From Prevotella sp. (GTDB lineage: Bacteria; Bacteroidota; Bacteroidia; Bacteroidales; Bacteroidaceae), in contig JAFUTI010000024.1 in the NCBI GenBank assembly GCA_017471465.1, forward strand, positions 30,978 to 94,977: DNA of 64,000 nt. The letters are read 5' to 3'. Numbering within the stretch: position 1 is the stretch's first letter; every line of letters begins with the position of its first letter. Under the pieces are notes generated by a model. It saw only the letters and a list, made by a program, of their open reading frames with translations. It searched no databases and was not told where the DNA came from. The translations under genes and the position numbers were made by a program. Below are positions 27,731 through 63,862 of the stretch, in pieces.

Positions 27731-27881
27731 GTGTGACAGTTACGGTTGTGACAGTAAAAAAATGATAAGGGTATAGTCTTTAAATGTTATATAACTAACT
27801 GATATATAGATAGTTAACCACATATTACGGAGGTAATACCCCCTTCAAAAAAACAACTGTCACAACTGTCATCTGTCACAC
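27731..27881. repeat. Inverted GTGACAG microrepeat arrays flanking an AT-rich core (copy A)
   Basis: The left arm (27731-27755) and the reverse complement of the right arm (27856-27881) match except for a short stretch and a 1-base indel. Each arm is built from repeated TGTGACAG units. The 100-bp core is AT-rich. The right arm ends 37 nt before the start of the truncated DUF3987-like gene. The same layout, from an unrelated sequence, precedes the intact gene at 61196. Confidence 0.85.
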
Positions 27882-27918: not shown

Positions 27919-28170
27919 ATGAGATACGATATTTCAAAATCAACGGCACCAAAGATGCCGACACTTGGACGGGGCACAGAATGCATCAAATTGCTGCTCT
28001 CACAGGCCTCAAAAGACATGCACGAACCCCTCGTTCCGATGCTTTTCCCGCCTCTTGGCGCACACATCAGCGGCGCAGAATTTCAATATCCCGACCTCAG
28101 TTGGAAGGAGCCGACGGGCTTAATGGCCAATCTGGTGGCCAATTCTGGCGATAATAAGGGCCAGTTTAAG
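27919..28170 (+). pseudogene. Truncated DUF3987-like gene (first 82 codons)
   Basis: From ATG 27919 the first 82 residues (MRYDISKSTAPKMPTLGRG to SGDNKGQ) align without gaps to residues 1-82 of the intact 438-residue protein at 61196, with about 48 of 82 identical by eye. After GGGCCAG (28160s) homology stops and a non-coding repeat begins that, in the intact module, lies about 2.4 kb further downstream in the HU leader. The open frame drifts on to a stop at 28257, but those residues are not homologous and run through a palindrome. I read it as the remnant of an internally deleted module. Confidence 0.8.
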
Positions 28171-28220
28171 GATTTCAGCGCGCGAAAAAATCTTTTCAAG
28201 CCGCGAATAATATTTTTTCC
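28171..28220. repeat. CGCGAA/A-tract repeat, copy 1 (also at 63763-63812)
   Basis: The first 24 bases, beginning GATTTCAGCGCGCGAAAAAA, are identical to 63763 onward, and about 42 of the first 47 bases agree. It contains two CGCGAA units each followed by A/T tracts. It directly follows the truncated gene and ends inside the palindrome at 28214. Confidence 0.85.
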
Positions 28221-28252
28221 ACACAAAGGGTCAGACCCTTTGTGTGGAAAAA
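28214..28252. repeat. Perfect 39-nt palindrome upstream of glmS
   Basis: TTTTTCCACACAAAGGGTC (28214-28232) and its exact reverse complement (28234-28252) are separated by one A. The stem has 19 perfect pairs. The T-tract is on the 5' side and the A-tract on the 3' side, the reverse of a bidirectional terminator. It ends 27 bp before the glmS -33 element. Confidence 0.92.
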
Positions 28253-60313: not shown

Positions 60314-60538
60314 TCGGCGAAATCAGAAGTCTGAGGCGCAATAATCCCAAAGACTTGATGTGATAGGTAACAGAATTTCTTTATGGTACACACGTACACG
60401 CAGGTACAATAATTTCTGAGTTCTTTGTAGGCTTAGAGAGTGAGGGAAGAGTACCGGTTTAAATGAGCTCAACTAACTACTTTGCTCCTCCCCCGAAAAA
60501 AGAGACTCAGGCTTAACAACAAAAAACAATCAGAAAGT

Positions 60539-60946
60539 ATGAAAAAGATTCAAATTTCTACCGAGAATCAGGTAACGCTGGATGGTATGATGACCATCGG
60601 CAAGTTGGAAACAGGCGAGCGCACGATTGACTTCGCGTGCTGCGATGATGTGGTGATGGAGCCTCTCAAGGGAATCTTCCGCGTGCAGCTGATGCGCGAT
60701 GGCAACCTCTACATGCAGGAGCGTAAGAAGCGCATCAAGAACAAAGGGCCGCTGTTCCGCGACGACAACTGTACGCTGTCGCACGGACGCGACGGTCGCT
60801 GGTACTTCTGCTTCTCAGTCGACGAAGACCAGCTGCGGCTGTTGCCTCAGAAACTGCAGAAGCAGGCGGGCGCCATCGCCCGGAAAGTGCTGCGGGAGCT
60901 GCTCCATGTAGAGGATAGCTGGAAACCGTTCGGCACGGAGTGGTAA
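60539..60946 (+). CDS. Unrecognised 135-residue protein at the start of the module
   Basis: I choose ATG 60539 (MKKIQISTENQVTLDGMMTIG) because the upstream in-frame codons lack any start context. The protein has beta-rich segments in the first 80 residues, two adjacent Cys in DFACCDDVVME, a basic stretch ERKKRIKNKG and a helical C-terminus LPQKLQKQAGAIARKVLREL. No signal or membrane segment is present. I do not recognise the family. It shares the module promoter, and 249 bp with the inverted arrays separate it from the DUF3987-like gene. Confidence 0.68.
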   Translation: MKKIQISTENQVTLDGMMTIGKLETGERTIDFACCDDVVMEPLKGIFRVQLMRDGNLYMQERKKRIKNKGPLFRDDNCTLSHGRDGRWYFCFSVDEDQLRLLPQKLQKQAGAIARKVLRELLHVEDSWKPFGTEW

Positions 60947-60967
60947 ACACGGGATGAAGCGGTTTTA

Positions 60968-61142
60968 CTTCAGTTACTTCAGTTCTTCAGTTAGAAACAG
61001 GGGGGTGGTGGTTCTGCGAATCCACATCTTAGTATTTATAACTAATTAATAATTAATAAGTTATATATTATATATTATATATAGGAAGAATCCGGGAGAT
61101 GCATGCCCCTCAAAACCTAACTGAAGAACTGAAGAACTGAAG
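60968..61142. repeat. Inverted CTTCAGTT microrepeat arrays flanking an AT-rich core (copy B)
   Basis: The left arm (60968-60994) and the reverse complement of the right arm (61117-61142) agree except for one extra base. Each arm is three CTTCAGTT-like units. The 122-bp core contains a run of TATATTA repeats (about 61056-61082). The right arm ends 53 nt before the DUF3987-like gene. Layout, arm length and indel type match copy A at 27731-27881 although the sequence is unrelated. Confidence 0.88.
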
Positions 61143-61195
61143 AAACAGGAGAAAACATGTATTACATTTTTTTACTAAAAAGCACGTAACTCATT

Positions 61196-62512
61196 ATGAT
61201 ATACGACATTACACGACCAACGCCCCCCGAGATGCCCAACCTCGGCAAGGGCTTGGAGACGCAACGACTGTTGCTCTCACAGATGAGCAAGGACATGTTT
61301 CAGCCCGAACACCCCATGCTTTACGCACCGTTGGGGGCGAAAATGGCGGGTGCAGAGTTTCAGTACCCGAGCGGTCAATGGCTCGAACCATGCGGTCAGA
61401 TACGCCTTTTGTGCGCCGACAGCGGCAATAACAAGGGTCAGCACCCGCTTTTGGTAGAGGCTATCATGCGCGATGAACTACGTTCTGACCAAGAGGCCAT
61501 CGATAAGTATGTGGAATGGCAGAAAGCCTACAAGGTAGCCAACAAGAAAGACAAGCCGATGGAACAGGACCTGTGCATCCATGTGATGCCGAGCGACACG
61601 ACGCGCCCGGGATACCTGAAGGCTCAGATGGCTGCCGAGAAGCACGGCGGCTACACCACGTTCATCGACCTGCCTGAGGCTGTCATGCTGGACAACCTCT
61701 GCGGCGGCCACAAGCAGATGACGCAGATACTGCGCCTGATTCACGACCGTTCGCGATACAAGGCTCTGAGAGCTACGGTGGACGGCATTACGGGGTCGGC
61801 CATCCTGAGGACAAACATCTCGATGGCGTCGAACCCGACGGACATCAGGAAGTTTCTGAAATACAACCTGCTGGACGGAACGTTGGGCAGAATTGCCTTC
61901 TCCTACAAGCCCCGCGGCCCGAAGCGCGACCCGAACATACCGGTCATCGGACAGTTCGACGAGGGCTTCTACCAGGAGCTGAACAACCGCATGGCACCGC
62001 TCGTTCTCTGCAAGGGTCGCTACGTCATCCCTCAGCTCAACAAGGTGTGCAAACGACTCGCGGCTGAAATCTGTGAGTATGCCGACCTGACCGACAACGA
62101 CGTCATGTGGGATATGGCCAAGCGTAGCATCGTGGCCAGCTTCAAGGCAGGCTGCGTGATGTGGGCACTCAACAAGATGCAGTGGACGCGCGGCATGGGC
62201 GACATGGTGGAATGGCTCTGCTGGCACGGCATCTGGAGTGTGTGGGCCGTCATGGGCGACATGCTGAAGGAGGGTGGTGACACCAGCGTTGCCGAGGGTA
62301 GCAAGACAGGACCGGCCAACATGCTGGACAGCATAGAGGGTAACACCTTCAGCGAGCAGCAGCTGGACGCCCTGCGTCAGCAGATGGGGAAACCCACGGG
62401 TGCCGCCTCGAAGAAACAGCTGTCGGTATGGTCTGCAAGAGGCTTTATAGTGTACTCCAACCAGACCGGCCTGTACACCAAGACTGACGTTTACCTTAAA
62501 AAGAAGTCTTAG
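61196..62512 (+). CDS. DUF3987-like protein of a mobile module
   Basis: The 438-residue protein has PMLYAPLGAKMAGAEFQYP (about 40-58) and ADSGNNKGQHPLLVEAIM, where DUF3987 proteins have a SGSGKG/S P-loop-like turn; here it reads SGNNKGQ. The middle has HVMPSDTTRPGYLKAQM and LDGTLGRIAFSYKPRGPKR, again in DUF3987 order. The family occurs in Bacteroidetes mobile elements and prophage-like islands, often beside primase-like genes. The role is probably in element replication. The assignment is by eye and moderate. A truncated relative lies at 27919. Confidence 0.65.
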   Translation: MIYDITRPTPPEMPNLGKGLETQRLLLSQMSKDMFQPEHPMLYAPLGAKMAGAEFQYPSGQWLEPCGQIRLLCADSGNNKGQHPLLVEAIMRDELRSDQEAIDKYVEWQKAYKVANKKDKPMEQDLCIHVMPSDTTRPGYLKAQMAAEKHGGYTTFIDLPEAVMLDNLCGGHKQMTQILRLIHDRSRYKALRATVDGITGSAILRTNISMASNPTDIRKFLKYNLLDGTLGRIAFSYKPRGPKRDPNIPVIGQFDEGFYQELNNRMAPLVLCKGRYVIPQLNKVCKRLAAEICEYADLTDNDVMWDMAKRSIVASFKAGCVMWALNKMQWTRGMGDMVEWLCWHGIWSVWAVMGDMLKEGGDTSVAEGSKTGPANMLDSIEGNTFSEQQLDALRQQMGKPTGAASKKQLSVWSARGFIVYSNQTGLYTKTDVYLKKKS

Positions 62513-62538
62513 TTTCAAGTTTCAAGTTTCAAGATTCA
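62511..62538. repeat. AGTTTCA heptamer tandem repeat before the primase gene
   Basis: AGTTTCA occurs three times in tandem, followed by AGATTCA, starting inside the TAG stop of the DUF3987-like gene and ending 7 bp before the next ATG. Confidence 0.85.
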
Positions 62539-62544
62539 TGTATT

Positions 62545-63507
62545 ATGGATAAGTATGAACTTCAAAAGCTCCGCGACCTGCCCATTGAGGCGGTCGCAGA
62601 GCGACTTGGGCTACGGGTGGTGAGGCACAAGTGCCTCTGCCCGTTCCACGACGATCACCATGCGTCGATGTCGTTCAGCGTCAGGCGCAACACCTATCGC
62701 TGCTTCGTCTGCGGCGCCTCGGGCGGCAGGATCGACCTGGTGATGAAGCATCTGGGGAAGCCGTTCCGCGAGGCCTGCCGCTGGCTGGCCGACGAGCACA
62801 ACGTGATCATCACAAGTTTCCAGACTCAGGATTCAATTAACCATGAACCCTTAACCATGAACCGTAGACCGTTTGACGCCAGCCGCTACGAGCGCTTCTT
62901 CGAGCATCCCTGGCTGAACGACGCGGCGCGGCGCTTTCTCTACGACGAGCGCAGGATTGACCCGAGGGTGGTGCGCTGGTGCCGCCTGACGTCGTGGACC
63001 GACAAGCAGGGCGTCAGCTGGTTGCAAACCCCGTATTATGACCGCGAGGGCAGACTGACAGGTCTCCAGAACCGCAACCTGGTTTCAAGTTCCAAGGTTC
63101 AAGGTTCAGGTTCGGGGCCGCGCTTCCGATTTCCGCAAGGCTCACGCTGCGGCATCTACAACCTGCCCGTGCTCAACCTGCTGCGACAGGGCGAGCCCCT
63201 CTACATCACCGAAGGGTGCAGCGACTCCTGGGCCATGCTCTCAGCCGGACGCAAGGCCATCGCCATACCCTCGGCCACGCTGCTGAGCCTGCAGGACAGA
63301 GAGCTGCTTGAAACCTGGAGCAGGAAACATGACACCCGGTTTCATATCTTTCCCGACAACGACGTGCCGGGCGAACGGCTCTACCTGCAGCTCCGCGAGG
63401 TGCTGCCACGACTGGTGCGCCATCAGCTGCCGCCGGGCTGCAAGGACTTCGCCGACTACTACGTCAGGTATCGCGATTCAGGACTAAACTTTCACGACAA
63501 TGGATAA
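62545..63507 (+). CDS. CHC2 zinc-finger/TOPRIM primase-like protein
   Basis: The 320-residue protein has a DnaG-type zinc ribbon with Cys32, His35, Cys53 and Cys56 (CPFHDDHHASMSF and YRCFVCGASGGRIDLVM), and a C-terminal TOPRIM-like part with ITEGCSDSWAML (about 219-230; Glu) and FPDNDVPGERL (about 268-278; DxD). It lacks the full DnaG RNA polymerase core, so it is a mini-primase or helicase-loader type typical of mobile elements. Two linkers (about 90-106 and 179-190) are coded by microrepeats (62837-62863 and 63081-63115). It overlaps the DUF4248-like gene by 8 bp. Confidence 0.85.
   Translation: MDKYELQKLRDLPIEAVAERLGLRVVRHKCLCPFHDDHHASMSFSVRRNTYRCFVCGASGGRIDLVMKHLGKPFREACRWLADEHNVIITSFQTQDSINHEPLTMNRRPFDASRYERFFEHPWLNDAARRFLYDERRIDPRVVRWCRLTSWTDKQGVSWLQTPYYDREGRLTGLQNRNLVSSSKVQGSGSGPRFRFPQGSRCGIYNLPVLNLLRQGEPLYITEGCSDSWAMLSAGRKAIAIPSATLLSLQDRELLETWSRKHDTRFHIFPDNDVPGERLYLQLREVLPRLVRHQLPPGCKDFADYYVRYRDSGLNFHDNG
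62837..62863. repeat. 13-bp direct repeat inside the primase linker
   Basis: TTAACCATGAACC occurs at 62837-62849 and 62851-62863. The 14-bp period is not a multiple of three, so the two copies are read in different frames (NHEPLTMN). Confidence 0.88.
63081..63115. repeat. GTTCAAG heptamer repeat inside the primase gene
   Basis: Five degenerate GGTTCAA units in a row code for the Ser/Gly-rich linker VSSSKVQGSGSG ahead of the TOPRIM part. Confidence 0.85.
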
Positions 63508-63697
63508 GGAGCCTGCAATCCGCGCTTACAGCAAAACGGAGCTGGCCCGGCGCGCCGGCGTCAGCGTGAAGACGCTCAAGAACTGGTGCAGACCGTTCCG
63601 CAAAGAGCTCTCACGCATGGGTCTCAATCCACGTGCCAAGAAGCTGCCGCCCCACGTCGTGGCGTTTCTCTCCGAAAAACTGTGCATCGACCTCTGA
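63500..63697 (+). CDS. DUF4248-like small DNA-binding-type protein
   Basis: The 65-residue protein MDKEPAIRAYSKTELARRAGVSVKTLKNWC has a helix-turn-helix-like stretch (ELARRAGVSVKTLKNW, about 14-29) and a short C-terminal helix. The IRAYSKTELA opening and position upstream of a HU-like gene recall the Bacteroidetes DUF4248 family. It overlaps the primase-like gene by 8 bp. It could regulate the module or help at its origin, but no direct evidence exists. Confidence 0.68.
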   Translation: MDKEPAIRAYSKTELARRAGVSVKTLKNWCRPFRKELSRMGLNPRAKKLPPHVVAFLSEKLCIDL

Positions 63698-63745: not shown

Positions 63746-63762
63746 TAACGTCGAAAGGAGAT

Positions 63763-63812
63763 GATTTCAGCGCGCGAAAAAATCTTCTGGAGCCGCGAAA
63801 AAAATTTTTCAA
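63763..63812. repeat. CGCGAA/A-tract repeat, copy 2, in the HU leader
   Basis: This is the partner of 28171-28220: the first 24 bases are identical and about 42 of the first 47 agree. It contains two CGCGAA units with A/T tracts about 20 bp apart and a weaker GCACGAG at 63815. Confidence 0.85.
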
Positions 63813-63862
63813 GGCACGAGACAAGAACTCTATTAATTAACATTTTTTAAAACACACACACT

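Follow-up and report, generated by a model that had tools for sequence, protein, structure and literature searches.

Mirrored repeat arrays upstream of a DUF3987-like gene in Prevotella follow two residues of the encoded protein

The iterons of SaPI Rep and SCCmec Cch2 are described as being bound by the C-terminal domain of these proteins (PMC7581432), while in geminiviruses, nanoviruses and circoviruses iterons of about 5 nt vary by genome and are matched by a short stretch of Rep (PMC3187698). In the satellite PLE (initiator RepA) and in iteron plasmids, repeats of the origin are described as the binding site of the initiator (PMC7145576). DUF3987 ATPases have been predicted to be helicases of mobile elements, with a C-terminal winged helix as a possible reader of origins (PMC5862659), and VirE_N domains are described as AEP catalytic domains (PMC8211822). 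Here we analysed a 64,000-nt stretch of a Prevotella sp. genome (assembly GCA_017471465.1, contig JAFUTI010000024.1, positions 30,978 to 94,977; hereafter the window), in which two mirrored arrays of short units lie upstream of a gene for a 438-aa protein (gene B; protein P0001). We found that such arrays go with gene B and that their spelling follows two residues of the B protein.

The B module shares with SaPI Rep-ori and SCCmec Cch2 short repeats beside a putative initiator gene, a primase in the operon and a proposed C-terminal recognition (PMC7581432), the last indicated for B by covariation and held-out prediction only. It differs in that the arrays stand upstream of B, whereas the SaPI/SCC iterons lie downstream of the gene; in that the body of B is DUF3987-like rather than DUF927 or D5/Primase_Cterm; in that its primase is of the CHC2/Toprim (DnaG) type rather than the AEP type; and in that no excision or integration genes were seen in the module. 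B resembles the DUF3987 ATPases and BT4734-like (VirE_N) proteins of Bacteroidetes, with whose C-terminal part it aligns over 425 columns. Unlike BT4734-like proteins, it lacks the N-terminal AEP-type part and is paired with a separate DnaG-type primase. The matching of unit to protein recalls the geminivirus, nanovirus and circovirus Reps, but these are unrelated rolling-circle proteins with an N-terminal determinant, whereas that of B would be C-terminal and the module lies on a bacterial chromosome. PLE RepA is a RepA_N-type initiator without predicted helicase or primase activity and, unlike it and the iteron plasmids, B has no match to a Pfam Rep family. P4 and SV40 provide further parallels. 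A limited collection of literature on DUF3987, VirE_N/BT4734-like primases, DUF4248 and iteron covariation yielded no iteron-initiator pair of this kind; by the searches made, an iteron origin with its own initiator is known, and this site and its reading residues are new.

Mirrored arrays upstream of gene B

In the window, the longest exact inverted arms of the two three-unit arrays (Table 1) are 18 nt long, 100% complementary and 122 nt apart, and the ATG of gene B (61196) lies ~53 nt downstream of the end of the right array. Direct reading thus confirms the initial annotation, which had described inverted three-unit arms around a 122-nt AT-rich core 53 nt before the gene. The same layout, with GTGACAG-like units and a 100-nt core, had been noted before a truncated relative of the gene and was found at ~27732-27881. 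The likeness between the two loci stands, and unit spacing can be given more exactly: in the intact module it is 9 and 8 nt in the left arm and 8 and 8 nt in the right. The left array starts ~20 nt past the stop of the 135-aa upstream gene. Folded as single-stranded DNA, positions 60960-61150 gave -39.7 kcal/mol, compared with -13.3 (sd 2.6) for shuffles. With a detector that looks for two inverted clusters, separated by 50-200 nt and together made up of at least 5 exact 5-mers, we recovered both array pairs from the window together with one weaker match (62388-62530), which we took for chance; 10 dinucleotide shuffles of the window gave no match. Rfam returned 0 matches, and hence no known structured RNA, in 60400-61400. 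A sigma-70-type promoter scan gave 1 site against 0.8 expected, the sigma-70 model being of little use in this phylum.

From the part of the listed loci that was fetched, we located 130 B starts, 89 of them full-length, and 87 of the 89 had at least 240 nt of upstream sequence. Inverted arrays were detected before 84 of these 87, against 1 of 2540 shuffles, so that the earlier expectation of arms before most homologues is matched by the upstream regions collected. Arrays were seen by eye in two of the three loci missed (L181 and L206), and the third (L204) has a run of N at that place. One of the 84 matches, at L180, is to a different mirrored repeat; the right array of this locus sits further upstream and has GTTCC units, fitting its residues R-K (see below). 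Since several contigs were fetched twice from two collections (L032/L231, L033/L232, L035/L211 and L036/L037), the 87 loci are not all independent. Arrays also preceded 23 of the 23 5' fragments of B that were counted, several listed fragments not having been fetched and L066, whose match starts at aa 28, not being counted. The fragments L130, L138 and L147 were fetched via the core dyad and are therefore no test of the link between fragments and arrays. A further 17 partial B without arrays are interiors of a class of longer paralogues, where none is expected.

A B match of any class was present in 44 of 100 genomes of the genus, comprising full copies, many 5'-only fragments and a 20-28% class within longer frames. 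The core-dyad pattern (at most 2 mismatches) was found in 41 of the 100, the reversed pattern having only 2 occurrences in all; some core-dyad sites, such as L139, are not arrays. A threshold of E<=1e-110 leaves B in 46 of the 399 family genomes, which belong to 10 of 30 sampled genera; for 393 genomes drawn across the order the count is 3, source genome included. IMG/VR held one confirmed B locus (L097), which has a CTTCC-type array.

Across loci, excluding L180, the arms are separated by 93-133 nt and the right array is located 30-77 nt upstream of the B start codon. With L180 counted, the medians are 108 and 42 nt. The cores have a median G+C content of 25% and the consensus TATAACTaATTaATAattAgaTAGTTATATA (107 cores). 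The 107 arrays carry 19 NNNNCA unit labels, or 18 without L180. Left arms matched their own right arm with a mean score of 20.9, compared with 10.0 against right arms with another unit; taking one locus per label, the scores were 20.0 and 8.4, and 0 of 10000 permutations reached the sum. Geometry is thus kept while sequence varies, as had been suggested, and the arms are not conserved in sequence in the way that had been expected of ordinary operators.

In the 107 arrays, the median share of left-arm bases paired to the right arm is 83%. Three exact units per arm are present in 54 loci. Here the first and third units lie 15-16 nt apart in 44 of the left arms and 48 of the right; left and right spacing agree in 24 of these loci, where chance would give 10, and disagree in 30. 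On the basis of the own-arm match and the spacing differences, the unit is the feature common to both arms and pairing a possible second constraint. The initial annotation had proposed selection on the inverted pairing; this may survive in that secondary role, but not as the main constraint, given the differing spacing and the covariation of the unit with B. Hybrid arms stand upstream of B in L189, L195, L199 and L203, either with outer GTGACA and inner GTTCCA units or with a GTGACA left arm facing a GTTACA right arm, and are possible intermediates of unit change.

Two residues of B follow the repeat unit

Covariation was assessed on 77 non-redundant B (97% clustering) with overall distance removed and 300 permutations; of the 89 full-length B, two of <380 aa, those without a unit and L180 were left out. 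Alignment columns 406 and 407 ranked first (r of 0.48 and 0.38, null maximum 0.28). These correspond to the adjacent residues 410 and 411 of P0001, which lie in a QLxxW motif near the C-terminus. Columns of the neighbouring primase did not covary with the unit (maximum 0.20, null 95% 0.24), and the primase was rejected as its reader.

The identity of residue 410 tracks base 1 of the unit: R is found with G in 33 of 35 cases and Y with C in 7 of 7, while S occurs with A (10) or the CTTCA class (6) and N with A (7) or G (7). Residue 411 goes with base 4, where K is paired with C (20/20), Q with A (17/17) and V with T (27), A (7) or C (1). R:G and Q:A are known base contacts. For both residue columns, mutual information with the corresponding base was the highest of all columns. 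Comparing 33 disjoint pairs of close relatives, we found residue 410 changed in 10 of 10 pairs differing in base 1 and in 1 of the 23 remaining pairs (p=1.2e-7, against 0.01 for the column ranked next), and residue 411 in 7 of 9 pairs differing in base 4 and in 3 of 24 others (p=8e-4). With relatives left out, the residues gave base 4 correctly in 64 of 77, base 1 in 50 and both in 46, compared with 44, 30 and 20 from the nearest relative; the commonest class would give 29 for base 4 and 42 for base 1.

The rule was then applied to held-out loci, having been fixed after the match list but before the sequences were read. From 48 loci, 46 B starts and 41 usable cases were obtained, 38 from other genera and 3 of the genus; two near-copies of training proteins, one locus without a unit and two with an unparsed motif were excluded before counting, and some of the 41 are mutually related (for example, L270-L275). 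Base 4 was right in 34 of 35 (6 loci had a residue outside the rule's table) and base 1 in 31 of 37, while the nearest training protein as predictor gave 31/41 and 26/39, respectively. Where the nearest training base differs, the rule was right in 5 of 5 (base 4) and 8 of 11 (base 1). Outside these counts, L282 from another family combines residues A-V with TTTCA units, consistent with V:T, and L283 has a degenerate motif and array.

As the unit covaries with two residues of B, recognition by B would explain the covarying sequence, and covariation together with held-out prediction makes the arrays very probably iterons read by B. We are confident on these grounds that B binds them. The array-B pair is real and widespread, with a simple rule that predicts new cases.

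Arrays of this kind were also present in 5 of 20 fetched loci of the long DUF3987-like class (L080, L086, L088, L089 and L092), mostly before another gene, and other genes may share such sites. L080 and L086 have residues A-Q and ATGACA units, in line with Q:A, five loci being too few for a test. In L080 and L089 the arrays precede a gene beginning MNSKLLKLN. Other detector matches near the long class (L085, L087, L096 and more) look like other repeats and were set aside.

Protein B, its neighbours and arrays without B

P0001 matched nothing in Pfam or NCBIfam, including DUF3987 (PF13148), any plasmid Rep family and, in Pfam, the helicase-body domains DUF927, D5/Primase_Cterm and AAA+; its P-loop is atypical. 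The DUF3987-like label of the initial annotation holds by way of the longer paralogues (~750-860 aa), with whose C-terminal part the B profile aligns (E 4e-75), rather than for P0001 itself. DUF3987 was matched by 4 of 15 members of this long class (E<=0.01) and, weakly (0.019), by 1 of 27 B members, and a BT4734-like N-terminal domain by 2 of 15 long members. No N-terminal AEP-type domain was met in B, which corresponds to only the C-terminal part of the long class. The end of B, FSEQQLDALRQQMGKPTGAASKKQLSVWSARGFIVYSNQTGLYTKT, reads like a winged helix with residues 410/411 in its second long helix. A PDB sequence search with alignment A1 gave one weak match (E 0.0068), to a kinase regulatory subunit, which was not used.

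The 135-aa upstream gene had no Pfam or NCBIfam match, and its family is not constant across loci, different genes preceding other modules. Behind B, the primase was recognized by motif in 83 of 89 modules and by eye in L035 and L211, with a remnant in L182; in these three the fetched sequence stops within about 130 nt. In the window copy, Toprim models fell below their cut-offs, as did the NCBIfam dnaG domain (2.3e-19). The helix-turn-helix (HTH) and HU-like genes were recognized by motif in only 16 and 17 of the 89 modules. Short direct repeats (AGTTTCA) lie between the B and primase genes at 62511-62535, and similar short tandem repeats occur between genes in other modules. The window ends with contig C2, and the source genome is 63% complete.

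Table 1. Positions of the B module and of the relic locus within the window
Feature	Position	Strand	Basis
Relic left array, GTGACAG units, middle one TTACGG	27732..27755	none	sequence and detector
Relic core dyad	27793..27818	none	pattern match with 2 mismatches, G000:C2:58770-58795
Relic right array	27856..27881	none	sequence and detector
5' fragment of gene B, aa 1-83	27919..28167	+	58% identity over first 82-83 aa
Stretch resembling 63755-63820 (before HU-like gene)	28168..28230	+	by eye
Upstream gene of the module, 135 aa	60539..60946	+	reading frame
Left array, probable iterons, three CTTCAGTT-like units	60967..60992	none	sequence reading and detector
AT-rich core dyad AACTAATTAATAATTAATAAGTTATA, kept between loci	61040..61065		pattern match G000:C2:92017-92042 and consensus of 107 cores
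Right array, probable iterons, three AACTGAAG units, inverted relative to left	61119..61144	none	sequence reading and detector
Gene B (P0001, 438 aa), proposed initiator: DUF3987-like body, winged-helix-like C-terminus	61196..62512	+	profile alignment, covariation
P-loop-like stretch ADSGNNKGQ of B (some relatives: GPSGVGKAQ)	61415..61441	+	alignment A1
S410 and V411 codons, residues covarying with unit bases 1 and 4	62423..62428	+	covariation
CHC2 zinc-finger/Toprim primase-like gene	62545..63507	+	Pfam PF01807 3.4e-14
Small HTH gene	63503..63697	+	weak DUF4248/HTH matches, all under curated cut-offs
Start of putative HU-like gene, cut by contig end	63863..64000	+	reading frame only

In the relic, the stretch that follows the B fragment makes the locus look like an internally deleted module. 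Elsewhere, among 20 further core regions, most of them without B or with only a few B codons, 17 had array pairs by the detector, 2 were cut by a contig end and 1 (L139) had none. L146 (1726-2434, G045:C1) has three tandem array pairs with units GTCTC, CTTCC and GTTCC, ~250-265 nt apart, each with an outer TGGAACGC remnant, and two of the units match intact modules elsewhere in the genome. Two sites in one genome (L133:1532-1981 and L134:1710-2158) are identical for 219 nt across the array and ~86% alike over the rest of a 450-nt match, reflecting either gene conversion or strong constraint, and L070 and L071, which have a deletion junction in common, are 96% similar across 520 nt. The L133/L134 identity and the common L070/L071 junction suggest that arrays were copied or homogenized after the loss of B. 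Solo arrays matched a resident intact module in 6 of 21 cases, compared with 2.4 by shuffling (P=0.015), which is suggestive only, as the list was hand-compiled from the first 100 genomes, not all core matches were fetched and one genome (G022) gave 0 of 4 unit types.

The solo arrays L134, L144 and L140 lie beside EcoRI-type and N4/N6 DNA methylase genes and a helicase-nuclease with defence-model matches, and further ones beside housekeeping genes, such as one for an SRP54-type GTPase (L136). A second kind of mirrored array, at L043:9025-9154, L056:3156-3286, L096:6689-6818 and upstream of B in L180, has AGTTAA- or AGTACA-type units around a GACTATTGTC / CGACCGTAGGGAGCG-like centre, with units again varying between loci.

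A candidate replication origin and its alternatives

We consider the module to be probably a replication origin with its own initiator that works in the manner of SaPI/SCC. This is the best reading because of the DUF3987-like body of B and the adjacent CHC2/Toprim primase; arrays stand before nearly all full-length B, and the putative origin function put forward in the initial annotation is the best-supported one. B would bind the iterons through its winged-helix-like C-terminal end, the three units per arm placing it on both sides of the AT-rich dyad. As a DUF3987-like P-loop protein it may then open or unwind the core, and the primase may start DNA synthesis. Origin, initiator and primase would together form a compact chromosomal replicon, of which the 5' fragments and solo arrays would be deleted copies. 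Because residue 410 tracks base 1 and residue 411 tracks base 4, each module would have an address of its own, which suggests that B reads a private start-of-replication address.

Several observations weigh against this interpretation. The P-loop-like stretch of B lacks the usual Ser/Thr after Lys. Alignment columns 69, 412, 303, 410 and 61 also exceed the null maximum (0.32-0.28), and only columns 410 and 412 share the helix of 406/407. In the base-4 pair test, column 99 (p 6e-4) is as low as column 407, so this test alone would not single out the latter, which weakens the code. For base 1, the leave-relatives-out result is only 50 of 77, against 42 for a constant guess of the commonest class. 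Proteins with N and AGTCTCA or AGTCACA units break the base-1 rule, accounting for 7 of 9 training misses and 4 of 6 held-out misses. No integrase was seen among the listed reading frames, no profile search being made, and tblastn of P0001 against 50,697 phage and 72,556 plasmid records gave no match. With these records empty and one IMG/VR locus, a phage or plasmid origin of the module was rejected.

Covariation demonstrates recognition, not its purpose. In the main rival reading the arrays are operators only: bound to them, B would regulate the operon to which it belongs, possibly through a loop that joins the two arms, and replication would not start there. The position of the arrays directly before B, a median of 42 nt from its start codon, fits such an operator. 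The neighbouring primase, the DUF3987-like body, the AT-rich dyad between the arrays and the persistence of arrays without B (17 of 20 fetched core sites) all speak against it, and we judge an operator role alone rather unlikely; operator and origin roles may go together. Solo, tandem and duplicated arrays might instead be the footprints of a transposable or site-specific element whose ends or recombination sites they form, and both the L070/L071 junction and the identical 219 nt of L133/L134 within diverged flanks would suit this. Yet in the full modules scanned no second array of the same kind stands at the far end, where other detector matches are a different kind of repeat, no transposase was noticed, and the link to residues of B is left unexplained. 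This makes element ends improbable.

Conservation of the arms for base pairing itself, as a DNA cruciform or RNA hairpin, would account for the strong fold in the window, the high fraction of paired left-arm bases and the excess of equal spacing, but gives no reason to expect the units of one arm to be alike or the unit to covary with B. It also sits poorly with the differing spacing of 30 of 54 loci, the hybrid arms and the empty Rfam search, and we regard it as very improbable. That the arrays are remnants without present function, kept alike by recombination between copies, could be argued from same-genome copies that match in the array and diverge outside it (L133/L134). Arrays before nearly all full-length B across genera, and units and residues that change together, leave this reading with almost no credibility.

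Under the origin reading, a further step is possible, although we advance it as a tentative conjecture: a code shared by the whole family, through which each DUF3987-like initiator would specify, by two residues, the iteron of its origin, with diversification letting several chromosomal replicons live in one genome free of cross-talk. Solo and tandem arrays would then be non-autonomous and be replicated in trans by whichever initiator fits their unit. In modules of 10 of the 30 sampled genera, a likely origin, its reading residues and a rule that derives the site from the protein come together. Origin recognition, incompatibility of coexisting copies and the meaning of solo arrays become testable by two-residue swaps, and the modules constitute a large natural series for protein-DNA recognition.
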